DNA of 64,000 nt from Lachnospiraceae bacterium (lineage in GTDB: Bacteria > Bacillota > Clostridia > Lachnospirales > Lachnospiraceae), in the NCBI GenBank assembly GCA_014804655.1, contig JAAUZK010000019.1, forward strand, positions 130,033-194,032. The letters are read 5' to 3'. A program made the translations under genes and the position numbers. The notes beneath the pieces were generated by a model that had not been told where the DNA came from, did no database searches, and saw only the letters and a list, made by a program, of their open reading frames with translations. Position 1 is the stretch's first letter, and each line of letters opens with the position of its first letter. Shown here piece after piece: positions 7,529 to 50,615 of this stretch.

Positions 7529-9658
7529 GTGAACTATTCGGCGACGCAGATGGCAAAAAGAATAGGTATTTCGAGATCCTATTTATATTATTTGAAAGAT
7601 CATGGCGTAGTCGAGCCGGAGATTGACGCAAACGGAAAGCCTGTTTGGTCTGATGACATCTACTATAAATTGAAGGATTATATTAAGAAAAACAGGACTA
7701 CAGAAAAAACAGAGCCAGATGAGCCGCCGTATAAGACGATCAGGATTAACAACAGGCGTTATTTAGGAAATAAATATAAGCTTTTATCTTTTATCACGAG
7801 AATTGCGGAAGAAGAATGCAGCAATATCAATACCGTGGCGGATATATTTGCGGGAACGGGAGCCGTTGCGTCCGCGTTTACCGATAATAAATTAATCACT
7901 AATGATATTATGTACAGCAATTACATCTGCCATGTGGCGTGGTTCGGCAGTGAAAGCTATTCCGAGGAGAAGATCATTGATCTGATTGCGGAATATAACG
8001 CGGTGTGTGTAGAGCAGGATAATTACATGAGTGACAATTTTGCCGACACTTATTTTTCGCGGGAAGACTGTAGGAAGATCGGATTTATCCGGCAGGATAT
8101 AGAAGACAGATATCATGCCGGAGAAGTGAACGGCAGAGAACGGGCACTGGTGATCACCTCTCTTCTGTATGCGATGGACAAGATTGCCAATACCTGCGGC
8201 CATTACGATGCATACAGGCAGGGCGTAGAGTTTGAGCGGCATCTTGAACTGGCGGTTCCGCAGCCCGAGGTAGATCTGAATGAAAATAACATATGCTATA
8301 ATATGGATACAAATGAACTGGCGGCGAGAATCGAGGCTGATTTGGTCTATATTGACCCGCCGTACAATTCCAGACAGTACTGCGACGCATATCATTTGTT
8401 GGAGAATGTAGCAAGGTGGGACAGACCTGAAGTGTTCGGTGTTGCCAGAAAGATGGAGAGAACAGCCCTCAAGAGCGATTACTGCACTAAGAAAGCGGCG
8501 GCAGCATTCGAAAGTCTGATTGATTCCATACATGCAAAATATATAGTTCTTTCCTATAATAATATGGCGGAGAAAGGAAACGACCGCTCGAATGCCAAGA
8601 TCAGTGATAACGATATCATGCGCATCCTGCAGAAAAAGGGAGCGGTAAAGGTTTTTTCGGAGGATTATAAAGCTTTTTCCACCGGCAAATCCGATATTAA
8701 GGAAAATCAGGAAAGACTTTTTCTGTGCACTTGTTACGGGGAAGCAAAAGAGATTATACCGTCTGCACTGAATTATACGGGAGGGAAATATAAGCTTCTG
8801 CCCCAGATATTACCTCTTTTTCCGCAGGATGCAGATCAGGCGGTGGATTTGTTCTGCGGTGGCTGTAACGTGGGCATTAATTTAAATTGCAGTAAGGTCT
8901 GGTTTAATGATGCCGATGAGCATTTGATCGGGCTTCTCAATACATTGAAGAAATTATCACGTGAAGTCGTGTTCTCATGGCTGTTTGAGACGATCGACCG
9001 GTATGGTCTGTCTCTCGTAAGCAAGAATGGCTATGGATATTATGGCTGCGAAAGCTCTAAGGGCTTAGCCGATTACAATGCCAAAGGCTACTATAAGCTG
9101 AGGGAAGATTTCAACGGCAGGACAAAGCAGGATGATGAATATTATCTCATGCTGTATCTGTTGATTGTTTATTCTTTTAATAATCAGCTTCGATTTAACA
9201 GAAAAGGCGAGTTTAATCTGCCGGTGGGCAAGCGGGATTTTAACATCAGAATGCAGGAGAAGCTGGCCGGTTTTTTGGATCGGTTGAAGAGCGGAGACTA
9301 TCGGTTTACCTGCGGCGATTTTCGAGATGTGAAATCGGAGCAGTTTACGGACCGAAGCTTTTTCTATGTCGATCCGCCCTATCTGATTACCTGCGCGACA
9401 TACAACGAGCAGGGCGGATGGACGAGAGCGGATGAGAAGGATCTGTTAGATTATTTGGAGAAGCTGGATCGGCGTGGGATTCGTTTTGCCCTATCCAATG
9501 TACTGGAAAGCAAGGGCAAGAGAAACGATATTCTGGCGGACTGGATCGAGAGGAACCCGCAGTTCAAGGCGATACAGCTGACGTATGATTATTCTAATTC
9601 CAATTATCAGACGCAAAAAAGTGGTGTCACAAGGGAAGTGCTGGTGATCAATTATTAG
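7529..9658 (+). CDS. Two-domain DNA adenine-N6 methyltransferase (D12 class, M.FokI-like) with N-terminal HTH
   Basis: Three parts are visible in 709 aa. Residues 1-55 are a MerR/excisionase-like helix-turn-helix. Residues 70-400 are a first D12-class MTase, with RYLGNKYK at 77-84, AdoMet motif FAGTGAVA at 107-114 and catalytic DPPY at 276-279. Residues 412-709 are a second, with NYTGGKYK at 415-422, DLFCGG at 440-445 and DPPY at 615-618. Paired domains of this kind (as in M.FokI) usually each methylate one strand of an asymmetric site. The start is GTG behind GGGGAAGG. No restriction endonuclease gene lies beside it, so it is an orphan in this window. Both active sites look intact. Confidence 0.85.
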   Translation: MNYSATQMAKRIGISRSYLYYLKDHGVVEPEIDANGKPVWSDDIYYKLKDYIKKNRTTEKTEPDEPPYKTIRINNRRYLGNKYKLLSFITRIAEEECSNINTVADIFAGTGAVASAFTDNKLITNDIMYSNYICHVAWFGSESYSEEKIIDLIAEYNAVCVEQDNYMSDNFADTYFSREDCRKIGFIRQDIEDRYHAGEVNGRERALVITSLLYAMDKIANTCGHYDAYRQGVEFERHLELAVPQPEVDLNENNICYNMDTNELAARIEADLVYIDPPYNSRQYCDAYHLLENVARWDRPEVFGVARKMERTALKSDYCTKKAAAAFESLIDSIHAKYIVLSYNNMAEKGNDRSNAKISDNDIMRILQKKGAVKVFSEDYKAFSTGKSDIKENQERLFLCTCYGEAKEIIPSALNYTGGKYKLLPQILPLFPQDADQAVDLFCGGCNVGINLNCSKVWFNDADEHLIGLLNTLKKLSREVVFSWLFETIDRYGLSLVSKNGYGYYGCESSKGLADYNAKGYYKLREDFNGRTKQDDEYYLMLYLLIVYSFNNQLRFNRKGEFNLPVGKRDFNIRMQEKLAGFLDRLKSGDYRFTCGDFRDVKSEQFTDRSFFYVDPPYLITCATYNEQGGWTRADEKDLLDYLEKLDRRGIRFALSNVLESKGKRNDILADWIERNPQFKAIQLTYDYSNSNYQTQKSGVTREVLVINY

Positions 9659-17212: not shown

Positions 17213-18033
17213 ATATACATAACCATAAATTTGCCCGCATTGGCACAAGGGCGGTTGAAACAGGAATGCTTCAATGGCGCTCACGACGCGAGCGGACAGC
17301 GGTGACATATGGAGTGTATATGGGGATCGGGAGAGGCAGTAGAAAAGTCAGGAAAATCAAAGATTACAGCGGCGGCAGAGGCAGAAACATGTACGGAAGT
17401 GCCGGGAAGACAGGCAGCAGGATCGGATATGCCATACGGATCGAACTGCTCTTACTGATCGCGCTGGGCTGTGTGGCGATCACCAAAGAACTGACAGGCA
17501 GATGGCAGGATTCGGAGAGCGTGCGGGAGGAAGCATGGCGGACATCGGATGTCGGTGAGGCAATCGAGGTGACGGCGGATGGCAATTTCATAAAATGGGT
17601 GGAGTATAACGTGACTTGCGAGGCGATGGTGGCAGCCTACGATCTCGACGTGGAATCTTATGAAAAGGATGTGCACATTAACTGGATCGAGCTTCTCGCC
17701 TATGTGGGTGCAAGGACGGGAGGACAATTCGATAAGAACAGCGTCAAGAAAATTAACGAGACGGCAAGGCAGCTGACCGAAGGTGAGACAACCATGGAAG
17801 AGCTGACGAAGGATATGGAGTATTACGACTATTATCTGGAGGCGTACACGGCGGTGCTCGGCGGGATGGTGGGCGAATTTTCCTTGCGTGAGGAGAATCA
17901 GTGGAACCGCTATTACGGACTGAAGGCCTTTTCACCGATTGCAAAAGGCTTTGACTACAGCCATTATGACGATTTCGGAGCTTCCAGAAGCTATGGTTAT
18001 TCCAGACCGCATCTGGGACATGACATGATGGGT

Positions 18034-18060: not shown

Positions 18061-18095
18061 AATAGAGCCTGCACATCAAAAAACGATGTGCAGGC
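18061..18095 (-). terminator. Terminator of the integrase gene, formed partly by its last codons
   Basis: GCCTGCACATC (18095-18085 on the minus strand) pairs with GATGTGCAGGC (18077-18067), 11 bp, followed by TCTATTTTTT. The 5' arm encodes the last residues of the integrase (GLHIVF-stop). Confidence 0.85.
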
Positions 18096-19635
18096 CATTT
18101 TCATCTAATATACACTTCTTGATGATCTTGCGGATCAATTCATTTTTAGCAGAATATTCTATTGTATCGAAATTATCCAGCAAATAGCAGATGTCATTAT
18201 AGATCGCTTGCTCGGTTTCCTGCAGGGACTTGCCCGCCTGTTCTTGCAATGTTGCCTGACGCAGATTAGTTTCAAGAGCTCTTTTCTGCTTATCCAGTTC
18301 CTCAATCTTGGCGACAATATAGGATGACGCTGTGGAGTCCATGGCATTCATGAGCGTGGTGGTCAGATTATCAATGGCTGTCTGCGTCTGTTTTATTTCC
18401 GCCTTGATTGAGGTTACACTTTGCATGGTATCTGTTACAGCGTCGCGATGGAGCTTAAAGCCTTCCGGGTTAAAACGTATTTTGCGAAGCTCTCTCAAAA
18501 ATGCATCTTCGACATCACTGATCCGGACATAGCTGGTATTGCATTTTGCTTTTCCCTGGCGCGCCATATCTTTGCAGTAGTAGTATGAGAATCGTATATC
18601 ATTCTTATAATATGTCCTTACATCCATGCGTGCACCGCATTTGCAGCGTATAACACCTTTTAGAATTCCACAGTCATATTTAGGTGTGCGCATCATTTTA
18701 TTGATGCCAAGACGTTCCTGCGCGGCGATCCAGTCGGCAGCAGGTATGACATAGTCGTGTATGCCGATCGCGATCGACCATGAAGTTTTATCCTGTTTCC
18801 TCTGGGCATCCCTGCCGGATTTTGTTTTACCATATCCGAGAAGGCCCTTAGTACCATCGAAGAGGGAAGGATCGGGAAGTGTGCACCCTAAATCCTTGAA
18901 ATAGTAATATGCCTCGATAGAGTTCTGGCAGTAGACGGGATTGGTGATAATATTATAAATTTGTGATGTACTGAGGAATTTGCCGGACTGGCTTTTAATT
19001 CCGTGATCTCTGCAATAGCGCTCTATTTTAGTAATGGCATACCCTTGCGTAATAAGCCCGTAGAGCAATTTTACAAGCCAGATAGTATCTTTGTCCACTA
19101 CAAGGTAAGAATGCTCCTTGTCGCCGACCTGACGGCGCACAGAGGTCATTCCCGTGGGCAGTTTACCACCGGTCCATTTACCGGCTGCGCCGAGGGCACG
19201 CATATTGTCCGTAACACGCTCGGATGTATTCTCACGTTCAAGCTGTGCAAAAGCGGCCAGAATGTACATGACAGTGCGGCCCATCGGAGTGGTAGTGTCA
19301 AAGGATTCCTTGACGGATACAAAGGAGACGTTATGCTGCTGGAAAATATCGTACATGGCGGAAAATTCCTGTACGTTACGGCTGATACGATCCAGCTTGT
19401 AGACCATAACGACATCCAGGACATCATTCCGCACATCTTCCATCAGCTCTTGAAAGCTGGGACGGTTCATATTTTTACCGGAGAAACCCTCATCTTTATC
19501 GTAGATTTTAAAGTCGATCTCCTGATCTTTGAAGATTATAGCGGCATAATCCTTGCACAGCTGTACTTGGACATGAACCGAGTCGCTGTTGTCGCGGTAT
19601 ACAGATTTACGTGGGTAGATTCCGATTGTGAGCAT
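18076..19635 (-). CDS. int: Large serine recombinase (phage integrase)
   Basis: Catalyses attP x attB integration. It is 519 aa from ATG 19635 (AAGGAGG 8 nt upstream). The resolvase domain spans 1-150 with nucleophile Ser11 in YPRKS and the MGRTVMYILAAFAQLERE helix. The recombinase domain (about 170-300) is followed by a zinc ribbon (CKCGARM ... YYYCKD ... KCN, about 350-395) and a coiled coil (about 425-490) typical of large serine integrases. It lies next to attL and is read toward it. A longer frame to 19713 runs through one copy of the 16-bp palindrome and is unlikely to be translated. Excision would need a directionality factor, which I could not identify. Confidence 0.95.
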   Translation of the reverse strand: MLTIGIYPRKSVYRDNSDSVHVQVQLCKDYAAIIFKDQEIDFKIYDKDEGFSGKNMNRPSFQELMEDVRNDVLDVVMVYKLDRISRNVQEFSAMYDIFQQHNVSFVSVKESFDTTTPMGRTVMYILAAFAQLERENTSERVTDNMRALGAAGKWTGGKLPTGMTSVRRQVGDKEHSYLVVDKDTIWLVKLLYGLITQGYAITKIERYCRDHGIKSQSGKFLSTSQIYNIITNPVYCQNSIEAYYYFKDLGCTLPDPSLFDGTKGLLGYGKTKSGRDAQRKQDKTSWSIAIGIHDYVIPAADWIAAQERLGINKMMRTPKYDCGILKGVIRCKCGARMDVRTYYKNDIRFSYYYCKDMARQGKAKCNTSYVRISDVEDAFLRELRKIRFNPEGFKLHRDAVTDTMQSVTSIKAEIKQTQTAIDNLTTTLMNAMDSTASSYIVAKIEELDKQKRALETNLRQATLQEQAGKSLQETEQAIYNDICYLLDNFDTIEYSAKNELIRKIIKKCILDENGLHIVF

Positions 19636-19658
19636 GACAGATTCCTCCTTGGACATGC

Positions 19659-19676
19659 GGTTGCACCGGTGCAACC
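19659..19676. repeat. Palindromic repeat copy 1 (GTTGCACCGGTGCAAC)
   Basis: Here extended to 18 bp, GGTTGCACCGGTGCAACC. It lies about 24 nt upstream of the integrase start codon and just before its ribosome binding site. Confidence 0.9.
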
Positions 19677-19740
19677 ATGTACTACATGAAATGTGGATGT
19701 TAGAGCAATACATTTGAGCTCCGGCAAATAACCGGAGTTT

Positions 19741-30303: not shown

Positions 30304-30320
30304 GACAGCAAATCTGAAAA

Positions 30321-30394
30321 TGGAAGCAATGGGGCTCGAACCCATGACCTCTCGCGTGTGAGGCGAACGCTCATCCCAGCTGAGCTATGCTTCC
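30321..30394 (-). tRNA. tRNA-Val, anticodon CAC
   Basis: A 74-nt cloverleaf on the minus strand. Acceptor GGAAGCA/TGCTTCC, D-arm GCTC/GAGC, anticodon stem TTCGC/GCGAG with loop CTCACAC (anticodon CAC, reads GUG), T-arm ATGGG-TTCGAGC-CCCAT, discriminator A, no encoded CCA. It lies antisense inside the plus-strand early operon with its own promoter. Confidence 0.9.
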
Positions 30395-30403
30395 ATAGCT
30401 ATT

Positions 30404-31336: not shown

Positions 31337-31651
31337 ATGAAAACCACAGGTATATCCCGCAGGATTGACGAAGTCGGAAGAATTGTTATTCCGAGGGAGA
31401 TCAGAAAAACGTTCGGAATAAAAGGAGGAGATCAGATCGAAATCTTCACCCATAACAATGAAATAGTATTGAGAAAATATAATGTTTCTACCGGGCTGGG
31501 TGAGCTTGTAGGAAGACTAAACAGCGAGTTTTCTGCAGTTAGAAAAGATCTGGACAGAGAAACGGCTGATAAAATTTACGGGCATATCAATGCTTTACAG
31601 GATCTCTTTGAAAGTATAGAGACGGGAGAAGGAAGGAGTGGAACAAATTGA
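31337..31651 (+). CDS. AbrB/SpoVT-type transition-state regulator
   Basis: 104 aa. Residues 1-48 are a swapped-hairpin AbrB fold, GISRRIDEVGRIVIPREIRKTFGI ... IEIFTHNNEIVLRKY. The rest is helical. It directly follows the BlaI-like gene and overlaps the next by 4 bp. Phage-encoded AbrB proteins may adjust host transition-state genes or phage timing; not determinable here. Confidence 0.8.
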   Translation: MKTTGISRRIDEVGRIVIPREIRKTFGIKGGDQIEIFTHNNEIVLRKYNVSTGLGELVGRLNSEFSAVRKDLDRETADKIYGHINALQDLFESIETGEGRSGTN

Positions 31652-32256
31652 GCAGAGTATTACCAATATTATTTAACACCGATATGGTGCAGGCGATGCT
31701 GGATGAGCGGAAGACAGCGACCAGACGTATTGCAAAAGGAATAGTACCTTATAGCGAATACGGGGATTTTTCGACAATGATAAACGGCGAATGGACAGGA
31801 CCGATATCCATGGAGAATCTCGTGAAACTTAAAGCGAAGTATCAGCGAGGCGATATCCTGTATGTCAGGGAGACATGGTGCAAGAATGCTAATTTTGAAG
31901 AATACTATTATGCGGCAAACAGGGAGAATGGTACAAGAGCTCCATACGGGTTAAAATGGAGACCCTCCATACATATGCCAAAGGAAGCAGCACGTATCTG
32001 GGTAGAGGTTACAGATGTAAGAGTAGAGCAACTGAATGAAATGACACTCGAAGATTTCTTGAAAGAAGGTGTCGTGATCAGACCGGAAGCATTCAACGAT
32101 CCGGAGAACGCATATCAGCAGGCAAAGAATATCTTTATAGATATCTGGGATCCCACAATTAAGAAATCCGATCGTGATCGCTATGGGTGGGAAGCAAACC
32201 CATGGACATGGGTTACAGAGTTTGAACGGTGCGATAAACCAAGAGAGGAGAGGTAA
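31648..32256 (+). CDS. ASCH/PUA-like phage protein
   Basis: 202 aa, TTG start at 31648 behind GGAAGGAG. MLDERKTATRR, GDILYVRETWC and IHMPKEAARIWVEVTDVRVE are characteristic of phage ASCH-like proteins, an RNA/nucleoside-binding fold with few characterised members. Overlaps the next gene by 1 bp. Confidence 0.7.
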   Translation: MSRVLPILFNTDMVQAMLDERKTATRRIAKGIVPYSEYGDFSTMINGEWTGPISMENLVKLKAKYQRGDILYVRETWCKNANFEEYYYAANRENGTRAPYGLKWRPSIHMPKEAARIWVEVTDVRVEQLNEMTLEDFLKEGVVIRPEAFNDPENAYQQAKNIFIDIWDPTIKKSDRDRYGWEANPWTWVTEFERCDKPREER

Positions 32257-32630
32257 TGACAAGGAGAAAACTAAGTAAATCGGAGCGGATGCAGGTACAT
32301 AGCAAGTGCAACGGCCATTGCGCATACTGCGGCAAAGAAATCGAATATAAAGATATGCAGGTAGACCATGCAAAGCCACTGCGTAAGGGTGGGGCAGATG
32401 AATTGAACAATATGCTTCCCGCTTGCCGGAGTTGCAATCATTACAAAGCTACTCTGGATGTAGAAGGATTCCGCAGATATCTCGCAGGAATAGCCCACCG
32501 GCTCATGAGGGACAACGTACCTTTTCAGGTGGCAACAAGATTCGGTATTGTCCGGCACATGGGAGATGACGTAATCTTTTACTTCGAGCGACTGGGAGTG
32601 GAATATGACGGGAAGGAAGTAAAAATATGA
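32256..32630 (+). CDS. HNH endonuclease
   Basis: 124 aa with a compact HNH core: CNGHCAYCGKEI ... MQVDHAKPLRKGGADELNNM then LPACRSCNHYKA. Two CxxC pairs bind structural zinc and the DH...N...H residues form the catalytic site. In many siphophages an HNH next to the terminase genes is needed for packaging; this one is about 1.8 kb upstream of terS. It overlaps the neighbours on both sides. Confidence 0.8.
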   Translation: MTRRKLSKSERMQVHSKCNGHCAYCGKEIEYKDMQVDHAKPLRKGGADELNNMLPACRSCNHYKATLDVEGFRRYLAGIAHRLMRDNVPFQVATRFGIVRHMGDDVIFYFERLGVEYDGKEVKI

Positions 32631-34029: not shown

Positions 34030-34467
34030 GTGGCGGGCTATGAAAACATAAAAGATAAAGGTTTTGATAAACGAACCACGGACGAACTACGGGAAATTTC
34101 AAAAAAGGGCGGGGTGGCTTCCGGAAAGGCAAGACGTAAAAACGCAAATTTTAGGCGTACATTGAATATTCTTCTGACAACACCGATCGAAAGTGATGAG
34201 TGGACTCCTGTTCTAGAAGCGCTAGGGATTGAAAGTACATTGGAGTCAGCCGTAAATATGGCTATGATCAAGAAAGCTTTAGAAGGTAATGTAAAGGCGT
34301 ATGAGGCAATAGCCAGATATTCAGGTCAGTCAGATCAGACAGAGTTATTTGAACAAGAACAACAAGCTCGAACAGAGCATATTCGCGCCAGCACAGATAA
34401 AGTGAAAAAAGACACTTCAACGAATCGAGAATTTGATGATGGAGTTGAAATTATAAATGACGTGTAG
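34030..34467 (+). CDS. terS: Terminase small subunit-like protein
   Basis: 145 aa, GTG start behind GGAAGGTGG. Position directly before terL, a basic Gly/Lys-rich N-terminus (SKKGGVASGKARRKN) and a helical middle with LEALGIESTLESAVNMAMI fit the small subunits that recognise pac/cos sites in Clostridial siphophages. It overlaps terL by 11 bp. The call rests mostly on context. Confidence 0.7.
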   Translation: MAGYENIKDKGFDKRTTDELREISKKGGVASGKARRKNANFRRTLNILLTTPIESDEWTPVLEALGIESTLESAVNMAMIKKALEGNVKAYEAIARYSGQSDQTELFEQEQQARTEHIRASTDKVKKDTSTNREFDDGVEIINDV

Positions 34468-35821
34468 CAGACAGGTGAAAATATCAGAGATCTTAATACC
34501 GAAGTATTATAAGATATTTAATGATAAAAGAATTAAGCATATTATTCTGACATCTGGAAGGGCAGGGACGAAATCAAGTTTTGCGGCGATCAGGGCGGAC
34601 TACCAAATCATAAGTGATCAGCATGGATCGGTCGTAGTGCTGCGTAAGCACCATAATAAACTGAGAAAAACAGTATATAAAGAAATGCTCAGAGGTATCA
34701 ACAGACTTTGTATACCAAAATCAAAGTTTAACATTACCAGATCACCGATGGAAATTACATATAAGAAATATAATACTACAATCTACTTCTCTGGCTCGGA
34801 TGGTATTGATGATACAAAGGGTATCATTGATGAAGATAAACCGATAAAACTTGTCATAATTGATGAGCTGACAGAATTCTTTGATGACGGGGAAGGGGAG
34901 GACGAGCTGGCCAATATAGAAGCTACGTTCGTCAGAGGTAACAGTGGCGGGTTCCAGATAATCTACATGTATAATCCGCCAAAAAATCCGAATGCGCCTG
35001 TAAATAAATGGTGCAGGAAGATGGAAAAGCGTAAGGACTGTATTCATATACATACAGACTATAGGGATGCGCCTGAAAAGTGGATAGGTACTGATCTGAT
35101 AGAATCAGCAAAGGCAATGGAGATTTCAGATCCAAAGATGTATAGGTGGATATGGCTGGGAATGTCGGTCGGCATCGATGAACTGATCTATTATATGTTC
35201 TCGCCAAAACATGTGGCATATCCTCCGAAAGAAAGAATGTATCAGACGGTATATATCGGAGGAGATTACGGGCAGCAGAACGCTACTACTTTTCAGGCAT
35301 TTGGGATGGATACCTATAATCAGATACTTCAAGGGCTTGGAGAATACTATCATTCCGGCCGGAAGACGGGGAAACAGAAAAGCCCGTCGCAATATGCCAA
35401 AGAGCTGATTGATATGTTGGATGAGATACATGATGTATATAAAGCCCAGGTCATGTATATATATCTTGATCCATCGGCAGCAGGATTGCAGGAGGAGATC
35501 AAGAGGAATATCAGAGAGCTTCCGTATACCGTGTTGATCAGAAATGCAGAGAATGACGTGGCACTTGGAATCAGCAGGGTCCAGAAACTATTGATATTCA
35601 ACCTGATAAGATTTTCTCCCCAGCAGGAAAATGCAATCGAAGAATTTGGACTGTATGGATATGATAAGAAGTCAATAGATAAAGGCAGAGAAGTGCCTGT
35701 AAAGGAAAACGATCACTGCATGGACAGCATAAGGTATATGGCCATGGGAGCATGGAGTAAAGTAAAGAGATGGCTTCCGAAAGGAATTGAAGAGGAGGAT
35801 TCAGAGGATGAATATAATTAA
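34457..35821 (+). CDS. terL: Terminase large subunit (PBSX-type ATPase/nuclease)
   Basis: Motor that packages phage DNA into the prohead. It is 454 aa: Walker A-like LTSGRAGTKSS near 31-41, Walker B KLVIIDELTEF near 132-142, and C-terminal RNase H-like nuclease with YIGGDYGQQNATTF and the YIYLDPSAAG and DHCMDSIRYM acidic clusters. Full length. It overlaps the portal gene by 14 bp. Confidence 0.93.
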   Translation: MTCSRQVKISEILIPKYYKIFNDKRIKHIILTSGRAGTKSSFAAIRADYQIISDQHGSVVVLRKHHNKLRKTVYKEMLRGINRLCIPKSKFNITRSPMEITYKKYNTTIYFSGSDGIDDTKGIIDEDKPIKLVIIDELTEFFDDGEGEDELANIEATFVRGNSGGFQIIYMYNPPKNPNAPVNKWCRKMEKRKDCIHIHTDYRDAPEKWIGTDLIESAKAMEISDPKMYRWIWLGMSVGIDELIYYMFSPKHVAYPPKERMYQTVYIGGDYGQQNATTFQAFGMDTYNQILQGLGEYYHSGRKTGKQKSPSQYAKELIDMLDEIHDVYKAQVMYIYLDPSAAGLQEEIKRNIRELPYTVLIRNAENDVALGISRVQKLLIFNLIRFSPQQENAIEEFGLYGYDKKSIDKGREVPVKENDHCMDSIRYMAMGAWSKVKRWLPKGIEEEDSEDEYN

Positions 35822-46405: not shown

Positions 46406-46797
46406 TAGATTGCCTGGTTAAGTTAGGAAATGTAGCGTTGGATGATGATATTTATATCAAACCGGGAACATACCAATGCTACATAAATGAAAAAAACTCT
46501 GAATGGGAAGATGCCGCAGGTGGAAACCATGATGACGTGTATGCACACAAAGCAGTGGGGTCTTTCACCATTAATTCACCGTCACAACCTGAACTTGATT
46601 TTTTCATGGATGCATATAGAAAAGCAAAAATAAGCCCGAAAGCAATGGATAAAAGAATTCAAATGCAGGTGTTTGTTCCGGCAGAAAATGAAATAAGGAG
46701 TATTGTAGCGAATGCAACGATGCCGCATCCTGTAGTGGATTTCATTGGTGAAGAAATATATTACATGGATATAGAATTTGAATTTAAGGAGTGTTGA
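46402..46797 (+). CDS. Tail protein, probable distal tail component
   Basis: 131 aa between tape measure and the large tail protein. Beta-rich (GTYQCYINEKNSEWEDAAGG ... AVGSFTINSPSQPELDFFMD). Proteins of this form in Clostridial phages are annotated only as tail or DUF proteins. Position suggests a tail-tip structural role. Confidence 0.6.
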   Translation: MIDCLVKLGNVALDDDIYIKPGTYQCYINEKNSEWEDAAGGNHDDVYAHKAVGSFTINSPSQPELDFFMDAYRKAKISPKAMDKRIQMQVFVPAENEIRSIVANATMPHPVVDFIGEEIYYMDIEFEFKEC

Positions 46798-46798
46798 G

Positions 46799-48772
46799 AT
46801 GCTGGACGTTTCTGAAAAAGTGAAGCGGTTATTTAGGGATGAGTTTAACAAAAAGGATGTCCGGATTCATTTTCCAAATAATGAGAGAGAGGATATTGTC
46901 ACGAAAGACATCTACGGAAACGGTACATCATTTGTTTTTACAGAGTCATTGTGCAGTCAGAGCAATTTAAAGTTTGGATTGAGTGAGGCATCCATGTTGG
47001 AATTCGACACTGTAGACGTAGAGAACATTAAGGACTGCAAAATTGAGGCAAGCTGCGAGATCACCGATCCGGATACCGGGGAAACAATTTCGATACCCTA
47101 CGGTAAATTCGAGGTGGATTCCTGCCAGAAGCAGAGTGACATGCGCCGACGGAAAGTTGTGGCCTATAGCGGCACCCGTCTGGAGATCAGCCCGCTCACG
47201 ATGGCCAAGCTGTCCCTGCCGTCACTCAATACATATCCGTACCGGATGGATATCGAGGAACTGACAGGCACGGGAGACCGACAGCGGGAAAGATTCACGT
47301 CTTCCGGCCAGATCAGGCAGTCTGAGTTTACGTGCAGTACGCAGGGGAAGGACTTTGACATCATGACGATGAGCGTGTCCTGTACCGGAAGCGACGGTCT
47401 AACGTATATTATATACTGCGACATAACATACGCATATAAGACGGTGGATATGATTGCTGCAATCTGGCGTCTGGAACCACTCGGGGAGAAATGGTATGAC
47501 ATCCGGTCAGAGATCACGGACAATGATAAAGCGCGGAAATGGGATGACGGGATCGCGGAGATAAACACCTATCTGGATATGCTGAGAAACATAGTCATAT
47601 ATCAGACAGAAGGCACAAGAAACGCTCTGGACAGCTTACTGCAGAAATGCGATGCATATATGACAGGCTGTACAGTACGGATGGACGTGCGGCAGACATA
47701 TAACAGGAAGAAACTGAGCACCCGGAAAGAGGTAAAGATCACAATGGATGACATGGGGAACGGGGTCAGGCGAAGCAGGTATGTATCCAGTATCCTGCTG
47801 GATGTCCTGAACGCGCGGGGCGGACAGGTCGGGAATGTTATTACCAATGATACGGTAGCGGAAGGAACCCTTACGTTTATGTGCCCGCAGAGTGTCGAGG
47901 TCAGGATCGAGACGCAGTTGGATGATCAGCCGTCGGAAACAGTGTTTGACAAGTTTATCGTATCCGGAAGAAAGGAGACGCTGGTCGGGTATGGCAGGAT
48001 GGATATAATATGCATCCCGCCCGTGGAGTCCGCGGAGGATGGTGTAAATCATCCGGCAGAATATACAACGCCGCTGCCATACGTCATGTTTGAAAGGAAA
48101 GAGGGAGATGACGGCTATTTCCGGTGTGCAGACGTGGAGAAGAACGTACAGAGTGCAGTCGGTGCCATGGCGGAGATTCAGGCAAAATTCGTACATATGG
48201 ACCGGTACGGAGTGCTCCGTTTCGTAGGCATATCTGATCATTTCGGTCTGTATCCGGAGGAGACACTTTACCCGTCAGAGGATCTGTACCCGGAAGAAAG
48301 TAACGGCGGCCTGCTGGCAACATGCGAATACAGCACCCTCTGGTATGAGGATTATGAAGTACAGCAGTTCGGGACCGTGATCGTGAGCTATAAAAACATG
48401 AGCGGCAATGATGAAGTGCTGGTATACCGGTTCAACCGGGCGAACAGAAACGTATACCAGATGAAGGATAATTTTGTCTTTAAAACCGGAGGATGGAAGC
48501 CGGCAGAGATCAGAGACATACTGGATACATGGTTTATTCCGAATCTGAAAGGAATCCGGTATATTCCTGCGGAGCTGGAAATGGTCGGGCTGCCTTACAT
48601 GGAGGCGGGCGATGTGCTGTCCGTGCTGACCAGAACGGGCGGTATCGAGGTGTTTGTGTTCAGGAGGACGCTGAAAGGGATTAACTTTATGACAGACAGT
48701 GTCGAGGCCAGAGGCGACGAAGTGAACAAAACGGATATGGACGATTCCGTCACGGTTGTAGAGGAGGGATAA
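46799..48772 (+). CDS. Large tail-tip/baseplate hub protein
   Basis: 657 aa from ATG 46799 (AAGGAG 7 nt upstream). The N-terminus resembles distal tail/hub proteins (FVFTESLCSQSNLKFGLSEAS, DTGETISIPYGKFEVDS). It contains a short tandem run YPEETLYPSEDLYPEES near 500 that is often seen in these proteins. It probably forms the tail-tip ring and links to the fibres. Confidence 0.75.
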   Translation: MLDVSEKVKRLFRDEFNKKDVRIHFPNNEREDIVTKDIYGNGTSFVFTESLCSQSNLKFGLSEASMLEFDTVDVENIKDCKIEASCEITDPDTGETISIPYGKFEVDSCQKQSDMRRRKVVAYSGTRLEISPLTMAKLSLPSLNTYPYRMDIEELTGTGDRQRERFTSSGQIRQSEFTCSTQGKDFDIMTMSVSCTGSDGLTYIIYCDITYAYKTVDMIAAIWRLEPLGEKWYDIRSEITDNDKARKWDDGIAEINTYLDMLRNIVIYQTEGTRNALDSLLQKCDAYMTGCTVRMDVRQTYNRKKLSTRKEVKITMDDMGNGVRRSRYVSSILLDVLNARGGQVGNVITNDTVAEGTLTFMCPQSVEVRIETQLDDQPSETVFDKFIVSGRKETLVGYGRMDIICIPPVESAEDGVNHPAEYTTPLPYVMFERKEGDDGYFRCADVEKNVQSAVGAMAEIQAKFVHMDRYGVLRFVGISDHFGLYPEETLYPSEDLYPEESNGGLLATCEYSTLWYEDYEVQQFGTVIVSYKNMSGNDEVLVYRFNRANRNVYQMKDNFVFKTGGWKPAEIRDILDTWFIPNLKGIRYIPAELEMVGLPYMEAGDVLSVLTRTGGIEVFVFRRTLKGINFMTDSVEARGDEVNKTDMDDSVTVVEEG

Positions 48773-48774
48773 CA

Positions 48775-49515
48775 TTGATAAGGGAAGTATTTACGAAGAT
48801 TTACAATAGGATCAACTGGCGGAACAGATCGGAAGCCATGACAACGGCGCTTGGAAAAACGCTGCTCAACAGGATGGATTACACGCTGGATGAACTGGAC
48901 AGCAGGAGTACTGTGCTGAGCAGCTGTATTATTGAGCTGGACAACTCAAAATTGGAAGAGAGCGAAGCAAATGAACTTGTAAAGGACTGGCGGATGGATC
49001 TGTCAACGTACATTGTCACCGTAACAAAAAAGAACGGCACGAAGACCACGTTCGATCTTGGCAGTACATACATTGCAGAGATCAGGAAACAGGTACAAGC
49101 GGCGGCTTCCAGCGCAGGCACGGCAGGGCAGTACAAAAACGCTGCGCAGGCGTCAGCAGAGGCGGCGGCCAAATCCGAGACATCAGCAGGACAAGCCAGG
49201 AATGCTGCCGAGGGGTACGCGGTCAATGCACGATCGTGGTCGGACGGCGATACCGGAACACGGGAAGGGGAAGCAACAGACTGTGCGAAATATTATAGTG
49301 AACGGTCAAAGAACAGTAGTGATATATCCAAATTGTATCTGGACAAGGTTGAACAGGCGGGGAATGAAGCAGTAGACAGAGTGAATGAAGCGGTACGGAT
49401 GAACCTTCCTGCATTCAGTATGGATTTTGAAACAGGACACCTGATGTACAGCGGAGGGCGGTTTATCTTTAAAATGGATGACGCAGGTCATATGAGATGG
49501 AGGACAGCAGTATGA
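48775..49515 (+). CDS. Tail fibre/upper baseplate protein with Ala-rich coiled shaft
   Basis: 246 aa, TTG start behind GAGGAGGGAT. N-terminal globular part, then a heptad-like Ala/Ser shaft (AAASSAGTAGQYKNAAQASA ...), a YAVNARSWSDGDTGTREGEA module common in phage fibres, and a small C-terminal beta domain. Its stop overlaps the ATG of the variable fibre gene, suggesting the two products assemble together. Confidence 0.7.
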   Translation: MIREVFTKIYNRINWRNRSEAMTTALGKTLLNRMDYTLDELDSRSTVLSSCIIELDNSKLEESEANELVKDWRMDLSTYIVTVTKKNGTKTTFDLGSTYIAEIRKQVQAAASSAGTAGQYKNAAQASAEAAAKSETSAGQARNAAEGYAVNARSWSDGDTGTREGEATDCAKYYSERSKNSSDISKLYLDKVEQAGNEAVDRVNEAVRMNLPAFSMDFETGHLMYSGGRFIFKMDDAGHMRWRTAV

Positions 49516-50255
49516 GTGATACGGAAATGATTATGGGCGATGCAGGAAAAGCAATGCTGGTACCGCGTGGGCAATACAGCGATACGGAGACCTATGAGTA
49601 TCTTGATTTTGTATACAGCGGTGACGCGTCATACGTCGCGAAAAAGCTGACAACAGGAAATCCACCGGCAGAAGATAATGAGTACTGGCAGTTACTGGCC
49701 AGAGGTGGCACTTTGACAGAAAACAGCGACGTGTCGAACACGACGGTGACGTTTAAAGAGGCAGAGCAAAGGATAAATATATTCAGCAAAGACAGCCTTT
49801 CCGTTATCGCAGGTAAAATAAAAAAGTGGTTTGCAGATCTTAAAACAGTAGCATTCTCGGGAAAGTATTCCGATCTGGAAGGCCGGCTGACCGTGACAAA
49901 CAATGACCTTGCAAATATGCCGGGGACAGCGTGGGATGCCGTCAGAGGAGCCGCGATCAGGAAGGATGTTGATAAGATAAACAGCGATTTAGATGGAATT
50001 AATCCGTCGAAGGCAAATTATGTAACATATGAAAATATAAATAAGATTTCGGATATCAATTTTGTGCGACAACATCCAGTAATATTTACTGGTGGTGTTC
50101 CTTATATGCCTAACATCGGAACATTTTATAACATCTTAACAATGATTTCAAAATCTTATGATGCCGCCAGTCAAATAGCGATCGGAGAGCTTGGCATCGC
50201 AATCAGATACCATAGCCATGATACAAACAAGTGGAGTGCCTGGACAAAATTATAA
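49512..50255 (+). CDS. Tail fibre/receptor-binding protein with switchable C-terminal tip
   Basis: 247 aa. Residues 25-75 resemble a chitin-binding-type (CBM5/12-like) module (YEYLDFVYSGDASYVAKKLT ... DNEYWQLL). A helical linker leads to residues INSDL (156-160), encoded by the left 14-bp inverted repeat. The last 87 residues are the tip (ANYVTYENINKISDINFVRQ ... KWSAWTKL), encoded inside the apparently invertible segment. The alternative tip lies tail-to-tail on the other strand, 1 bp away. It probably decides which surface glycan the phage recognises. Confidence 0.8.
   Translation: MSDTEMIMGDAGKAMLVPRGQYSDTETYEYLDFVYSGDASYVAKKLTTGNPPAEDNEYWQLLARGGTLTENSDVSNTTVTFKEAEQRINIFSKDSLSVIAGKIKKWFADLKTVAFSGKYSDLEGRLTVTNNDLANMPGTAWDAVRGAAIRKDVDKINSDLDGINPSKANYVTYENINKISDINFVRQHPVIFTGGVPYMPNIGTFYNILTMISKSYDAASQIAIGELGIAIRYHSHDTNKWSAWTKL
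49978..49991 (+). repeat. Left inverted repeat of the invertible fibre segment
   Basis: TAAACAGCGATTTA, exact inverse of 50,542-50,555. It encodes the NSDL codons of the fibre in the same codon phase as the opposite copy. Confidence 0.85.
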
Positions 50256-50256
50256 A

Positions 50257-50555
50257 TTATTGATATGTGTCAAACAAAAAAGCTATTGCTTGCACGCTAT
50301 TGGTAGACTCATATTCTACATATAATTTTGTTCCCCGCGGAAACCAGTATGTTCTGACATTGCCAGCAGTACATGTAAATCCTACAGTAAATTCACCAGA
50401 TGAACTGCATAGATTCATTTTTATATTTTCCGCACCCCACGTATTCAGGTATATCATTCCGTCATATGGCATTGTGTAAATATTATTTAGGGAATTATAC
50501 AATAGGAGATCGACATTAAATTTAATTGTTCTCTTGGATTTTAAATCGCTGTTTA
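50257..50555 (-). pseudogene. Silent alternative tail-fibre tip cassette
   Basis: Reads NSDLKSKRTIKFNVDLLLYN then a beta-rich tip (YTMPYDGMIYLNTWGAENIK ... VEYESTNSVQAIAFLFDTYQ). It has no ribosome binding site or convincing start of its own; the minus frame extends beyond 50,555 only by running through the terminator region. It becomes the fibre C-terminus if the segment inverts. Aromatic and Gly-rich composition fits a receptor-binding tip. Confidence 0.75.
50542..50555 (-). repeat. Right inverted repeat of the invertible fibre segment
   Basis: Plus strand TAAATCGCTGTTTA, the exact reverse complement of 49,978-49,991. Confidence 0.85.
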
Positions 50556-50589
50556 GTGAACTTATAATCTTATACTTTAAATCTGAAAT

Positions 50590-50615
50590 AAGACCCGCAA
50601 AGGTCTTTATTTTTA
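50590..50615 (+). terminator. Terminator after the fibre gene
   Basis: AAGACC (50590-50595), loop CGCAAA, GGTCTT (50602-50607), then TATTTTTAT. It lies outside the invertible segment, so it serves either orientation. Confidence 0.75.

Follow-up and report, generated by a model that had tools for sequence, protein, structure and literature searches.

Inversion of tail-fibre ends is best known as the serine-invertase mechanism of phages Mu and P1, in which reversal of the Mu G or P1 C segment swaps the ends of the tail fibre and the invertase gene adjoins the segment. Switches of the Gin, Cin and Hin type use crossover sites of about 26 bp together with an enhancer. Tail switches that rely on tyrosine recombinases have also been described, both in bifidophages (PMC6109161) and in Eggerthella prophages (PMC8778435), and we draw here on excerpts of those two papers. 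The Rin shufflon of Bifidobacterium prophages combines a constant N-terminus with alternative C-termini of 95-100 residues; a short asymmetric site, the 11-bp rix site (TTCCCTAACCC), lies inside the gene, rin is found at the locus, and an XerD-like armless tyrosine recombinase is the predicted invertase (PMC6109161, in excerpts that also name Gin and Cin). A second bifidophage locus is described in the same excerpts: a segment of about 500 bp has opposite orientations in two phages, with a short repeat as the point of inversion. No recombinase adjoins it, and the authors proposed that the enzyme is supplied in trans (PMC6109161). The Rin-like shufflon of Eggerthella lenta prophages, as excerpted, includes a tyrosine recombinase, short crossover repeats and genes of the host-range type (PMC8778435). 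According to excerpts of PMC5386303, C. difficile RecV turns the short inverted repeats of a flagellar switch, the repeat being AAGTT(A/G)CTAT(A/T)TTACAAAAAA. Faecalibacterium phages carry diversity-generating retroelements, and the word "inversion" was not matched in the passages of that paper that were searched (PMC5883640); PMC5903667, likewise in part, served as general background. A search by title and opening of the abstract, with subscription journals and preprints outside its scope, returned no paper on the site described here or on the loci that bear it.

We analyzed a tail-fibre locus in a prophage of a Lachnospiraceae bacterium (genome G000), within a stretch of 64 kb that we call the window. 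The locus resembles the Mu G and P1 C segments in that tail-fibre ends would be exchanged by inversion, but no serine invertase was found for it and the enzyme associated with its sites is a tyrosine recombinase; the locus is not a Gin/Cin system. Like Rin, it has a constant fibre body, alternative C-termini and short repeated sites in frame. Its site (TAAACAGCGATTTA, 14 bp) differs from the 11-bp rix, however, it has two tips only, and its prophage has no such recombinase. A recombinase at the locus, as in Rin, is present in five relatives (L114, L133, L154, L187 and L201) and absent from the window, and because of the different site and the missing recombinase we do not assign the locus to Rin. 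Nearest in layout, as far as the excerpts of PMC6109161 describe it, is the second, enzyme-less bifidophage locus, which differs in its 8-bp repeat CAGGGTTA, its genes of unknown function and its actinobacterial host. The E. lenta shufflon differs, in the excerpts of PMC8778435, by its 8-bp ttccgtat repeat, several tandem cassettes and a recombinase at the locus. The RecV switch shares with our locus short inverted repeats of partly similar sequence, but as excerpted it is a 154-bp element ahead of a host flagellar operon, with imperfect repeats of 21 bp and no tail fibre.

Anatomy of the fibre locus and its prophage

The tail-fibre gene in its expressed orientation occupies 49512..50255 on the plus strand. 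Its best match is phrog_21765, a family of unknown function (E 4e-13); it also matches the tail-fibre families phrog_5073 (E 5e-8) and phrog_9851 (E 3e-3), and it carries a GKIKKWFADLK module common to related phages. A GGAGG 8 nt upstream of the ATG, read from the sequence, agrees with a start at 49512, and a second in-frame ATG lies at 49497. The upstream gene (48775..49515, plus strand) is tail-fibre-like: its best match is phrog_17196, labelled "kinase" (E 1.5e-6), and the tail-fibre families phrog_13980 (E 6e-5) and phrog_3279 (E 9e-4) rank below it. The neighbouring gene at 46778..48772 (plus strand, phrog_18190) is of unknown function.

Within the fibre gene the left site, at 49978-49991 on the plus strand, reads NSDL; the right site, at 50542-50555 on the minus strand, is its exact reverse complement and also reads NSDL. 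The perfect match between the two arms is 14 bp, and the sequence occurs once per strand in the whole 4.55-Mb genome. Both arms depart from the consensus TAAATAGCAATTTA at two positions, identically. Past the left site the gene continues for 87 residues as tip A (49992..50255, plus strand), the present C-terminus of the fibre. Past the right site lies tip B (50257..50541, minus strand), a silent alternative C-terminus of 94 residues. The stops of the plus fibre and the minus frame, at 50255 and 50257, leave one base between them. Neither tip matched Pfam, with tip A searched at E values up to 0.1. Counted from the arms in a single phase, 91 codons are open on the plus strand and 98 on the minus strand, against 0-10 in the other two phases; the phase shared by the arms is partly forced, since the site holds a stop codon in another phase. 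By happenstance, the minus frame stays open for 82 codons past the right arm. A terminator-like hairpin, recognized by consensus match only, lies outside the repeats at 50590-50607 on the plus strand. These results confirm what a preliminary description of this DNA had observed: the exact 14-bp inverted repeats, the convergent ends, arms that both encode NSDL in one phase, the terminator beyond the repeats, no ribosome-binding site ahead of the minus cassette (none was seen by eye), and no invertase of the Hin/Gin type nearby. On the last point, a search of the whole genome with PF00239 found within the prophage only the large serine integrase and no small serine invertase.

That integrase, a large serine recombinase encoded at 18076..19713 on the minus strand, has Resolvase, Recombinase and zinc-ribbon domains and matches the integrase family phrog_95 (E 4e-104). 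A Phage_integrase search gave no match in the prophage and 12 matches in G000, all of them outside the prophage, and the profile of the recombinase family described below found no full-length member in G000; its best match was the host XerD, confirmed by NCBIfam above the cut-off. Genes with Resolvase domains are clustered in G000, three on contig C25 and three on C49, and three of the Phage_integrase matches lie close together on contig C1. A 14-bp direct repeat (GGAAAATCAAAGAT) at 17351 and 53644, near both prophage ends, is a candidate attachment core, and a tRNA-Val gene (cac) is found inside the prophage at 30320-30395 on the minus strand. The plus-strand early-region gene at 31648..32256 (phrog_874) resembles, by eye, the start of L267:14103-14786, and neither of the two matches Pfam. 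It is followed by an HNH endonuclease gene (32256..32630, plus strand) upstream of the terminase genes, of which the large subunit is encoded at 34457..35821 on the plus strand. In genome record G102 a gene with a start like that of 31648..32256 stands shortly before a tyrosine recombinase; the window has no recombinase at that place.

A site family in related fibre loci

A scan with the GKIKKWFADLK fibre module identified 7 genome loci and 44 viral loci, and the fibre frame could be located by motif in 38 of these 51, on which the analysis then drew. The named loci with a related module belong to bins of Lachnospiraceae and other Clostridia. Seven of the 38 (L036, L038, L042, L047, L051, L061 and L063) have a repeat on either side of the end of the fibre whose core is TAAATAGCAATTT. 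A 15-base site query of viral contigs matched at least 120 loci, of which 120 were examined. Exact inverted partners within 4 kb were present in 6 of the 120, compared with 0 of 120 for exact control partners; among these six, L106 repeats L051, L200 repeats L047, and L187 is a shufflon. Partners with up to one mismatch added four more loci (L087, L114, L177 and L189), a number equalled by the reversed-core control (4/120).

Ten loci besides the window combine a site pair with two convergent cassettes, each open for 80-126 codons: L051, L036, L038, L047, L061, L105, L109, L112, L219 and L189. Their sources are viral contigs and genome bins of Lachnospiraceae. L061 and L063 are one phage and were counted once, L036 and L219 are separate contigs of one genome, and L189 belongs to the class with up to one mismatch, its inclusion resting on its two open cassettes. 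The stops of the convergent cassettes are separated by -4 to +18 bases. In nine of the ten, a frame that has been open for 70-590 codons continues into one arm; for L105 the available piece ends too early to show such a frame, and the fibre body is not visible. The arms are identical within eight loci and differ by two mismatches in L219 and one in L189, while their sequence varies from locus to locus (TAAACAGCGATTTA in the window, AACTAAATAGCAATTTGAACG in L061, GTCAGATAAATAGCAATTTA in L047). Arms that are alike within a locus and unlike between loci are the pattern expected if the arms recombine. We define the TAAATAGCAATTTA inverton family by an inverted 14-bp site pair, two convergent cassettes of at least 80 codons, and one arm inside a fibre frame, all of which the window possesses.

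Some loci have a site pair without a proper second tip: L264 (4 codons), L042 (16 codons) and L087. L040, with the similar repeat AAATAGCTATTT, has a minus frame of only 15 codons and was not counted. Among 392 genomes of the order, 81 matched TAAAYAGCRATTTA, and inverted pairs of it less than 3 kb apart, picked by eye, occur only in G000 and G269, the G269 pair being one-tipped. In G269 (L264:8090-8375) the fibre tip is bounded by the inverted pair TAAACAGCAATTTA and the second tip is the one of 4 codons, a one-tip version of the arrangement. Tip B of the window aligns from residue 1 with the end of the fibre that L042 expresses, and over 90 aa the two are 39% identical (E 4e-14). The silent frame is thus a predicted fibre tip, its match to L042 beginning at the site.

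Tip exchange and inversion in relatives

Two viral contigs, L305 and L306, have a common block of 711 bp without a mismatch, which opens with the first base of the left site and closes with the last base of the right one; their 300-bp flanks are only 25% and 30% identical. BLAST delimits the block at 715 bp with one mismatch (L305:2995-3709 and L306:1216-1930) and gives no other match in the stretches compared (6.3 and 4.6 kb). The fibre bodies of the two differ, and both tips are the same. An identical block between unrelated flanks marks the repeats as exchange points. Judging by the contig names, which share the genome number 2886817950, L305 and L306 presumably come from one genome. The pair suggests that tips may pass between phages at the sites, although the block could be an assembly artefact.

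In a second pair, L296 and L297, the recombinase and fibre region is collinear (89-92%), and the cassette that ends the fibre in L296 (4097-4426) recurs in L297 at 99.4%, inverted and on the far side of the recombinase (7606-7935). In these loci the sites read TAAATAGCAG, which is related to, and not identical with, the site of the window family. By this alignment, inversion has evidently taken place in nature among phages with this recombinase family, at a related site. The near-identical phage pairs L061/L063 and L288/L289 each have the same orientation, and cassette searches found no opposite orientation in the L061 and L109 lineages. For the L038 and L061 cassettes no relative was found, and for L109 the 20 records listed out of 45 contained only short partial matches of a wider stretch.

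Searches for relatives of the window phage itself gave no DNA match in the "phages" collection and, with the fibre-module protein, one record at 39% in the same collection, which is no close relative. Tip B had no match in viral contigs. The window DNA matched, in 61 related genomes, only its own locus and one stretch of 35 bases. The fibre protein was matched in 3 of 77 genomes of the same genus, including the window's own, and the other two loci do not contain an exact TAAAYAGCRATTTA. With no close relative of the phage found, the window copy was not seen inverted.

In G101, tip pairs between such sites occur without a fibre gene, at L220:5751-6532 and L218:4731-5316. The L220 block is flanked on one side by an endolysin-like gene of the glycosyl-hydrolase-25 type and on the other by a response-regulator gene, and the L218 block adjoins pstS on one side; both are at what look like prophage ends. 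Outward from the right site L218 and L220 are 90% identical, and their cassettes are unrelated.

An associated family of tyrosine recombinases

Members of one tyrosine recombinase family are encoded in 5 of the 120 site-fetched loci, between the sites in L114, L133, L187 and L201 and beside them, at the end of the locus, in L154. In these multi-cassette loci up to two mismatches were allowed in the sites, most of which open frames of 48-146 codons, with some short ones (18, 25 and 5 codons). An alignment of the family, A2, retains the R, K, HxxR, H and Y residues; the proteins have an XerA-like core with about 65 extra N-terminal residues and are of the armless type. A search of viral contigs with the alignment of the five shufflon recombinases identified 15 loci, some of them without sites of this core.

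Family members also lie near terminase or integrase genes in other records with site pairs (G101, G110, G112 and G102). G101 has two copies, with an N-terminus cut by the contig end; on its contig C23 the tyrosine recombinase precedes an HNH gene, from which a single frame separates it. Used as a query, the G101 recombinase had no match in viral contigs. In G102 a distance of 23 kb separates the recombinase from the cassettes; to judge from the neighbouring genes it lies in the early part of that prophage, and a Phage_integrase-type gene adjoins it. An HNH label considered for a gene of G112 is not borne out by Pfam and was dropped. Overall, the family profile matched 4 of 13 genomes or records with a site pair and 0 of 12 without one, a weak association, given that three of the latter have distant partial matches, one has a fibre running off its contig, and many records are fragments. 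The link between site and recombinase rests on the individual loci of this section and on L296/L297.

Proposed mechanism and alternatives

With a probability of roughly three in four, we regard the locus as a two-tip inverton whose sites recombine by an enzyme of the XerA-like tyrosine recombinase class, the enzyme being supplied in trans or the element being dormant. If the two 14-bp sites recombine with each other, the 550-bp interior would be turned around, and reversal would join the constant fibre body in frame to either tip A or tip B, with the hairpin outside the segment serving both orientations. The likeliest enzyme would be a tyrosine recombinase of the associated family acting in trans. 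Since the window prophage has no member of that family, switching would need an enzyme of another prophage or of the host, or else the element is dormant. On these comparisons the locus is best read as an orphan within a tyrosine-recombinase system that switches tail tips, and as one that depends on an enzyme in trans. We infer that the window copy flips, and its position and the known parallels point to tips that may set receptor choice.

Of the ideas put forward in the preliminary description, the invertible tail-tip cassette is strongly supported by the ten loci, the L305/L306 exchange and the inversion in a related shufflon, with the window copy itself not seen inverted. Its proposed comparison with related prophages yielded no close relative, and an inverted cassette only in the related pair L296/L297. 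The parallel with Mu and P1 survives in its logic and fails in its enzyme, a tyrosine recombinase family being what accompanies the sites. The enzymes it had left open (the integrase, a host enzyme or some other) can be narrowed, as the sites accompany an armless tyrosine recombinase family and the integrase is of the serine type; thus the enzyme for the window copy would be supplied in trans, or would be another tyrosine recombinase, or is lacking.

The main rival to switching in trans is a frozen element. Its ancestor would have been invertible and the enzyme later lost, leaving tip A fixed and tip B a silent fossil. The prophage without a family recombinase, the genome without a full-length one and a site that departs from the consensus at two positions are all compatible with such a history. 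On the other hand, the same two changes stand in both arms and both tips are intact, a state that decay would not preserve for long, unless the variant was acquired in its present form. We consider a frozen remnant possible, though not probable.

Next is inversion of the segment by a tyrosine recombinase that the host chromosome encodes, be it XerD or a different one, in a role like that of RecV. Candidates exist, as the Phage_integrase matches outside the prophage number 12 and include XerD. The reverse complement of the family core and the C. difficile flagellar-switch repeat, as given in excerpts of PMC5386303, both contain TTGCTATTT, but this likeness is short and AT-rich, came from a directed comparison, and serves as a lead only. 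Against a host enzyme, the recombinase family that accompanies the sites is phage-encoded in relatives, and we find this explanation doubtful. The prophage's own large serine integrase, the sole recombinase that the Resolvase and Phage_integrase searches found in the prophage, might instead invert the segment at the 14-bp repeats. This is very unlikely: G102 has the site family and a Phage_integrase-type gene next to its family recombinase, the site-bearing record G107 has one Phage_integrase match (a 386-aa frame) and no Resolvase match, and in the five multi-cassette loci such sites occur together with a tyrosine recombinase dedicated to them.

When the 1154-bp region was subjected to 2000 dinucleotide shuffles, 2 of them contained at least one perfect inverted pair of 14 bp whose arms were separated by 200-1500 bp; for a stretch of 8 kb the figure was 7 of 300. 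The pair described here is the only one of such spacing in the 64-kb window. By these frequencies the repeat by itself is only moderately improbable and does not settle the matter. A chance repeat across two unrelated convergent frames is nevertheless hardly credible, given the same core at the same place in ten further loci, the excess of exact inverted partners over control partners (6/120 versus 0/120), and the homology of tip B to an expressed tip.

Conclusions

Sequence comparison gives good support to the window locus as an inverton with two tips and as a further form of tail switching by tyrosine recombinases; its own activity is putative. Phages of Lachnospiraceae bins and viral contigs have its site in common, which is translated as NS[ND]L and bounds modular tips. 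The recombinase that accompanies it may be at the locus, far off, or absent. We tentatively suggest, at somewhat less than even odds, that one phage tyrosine recombinase family both flips tip pairs and moves tip blocks in trans between unrelated co-resident prophages, and that such prophages could keep an orphan inverton and share a pool of tips, including silent blocks at prophage ends without a fibre gene. The most surprising result, subject to a check for assembly artefact, is that an entire block of tips has passed between viral contigs. As a sequence tag the site offers a simple way to find such switches, and it makes trans-supplied switching testable.
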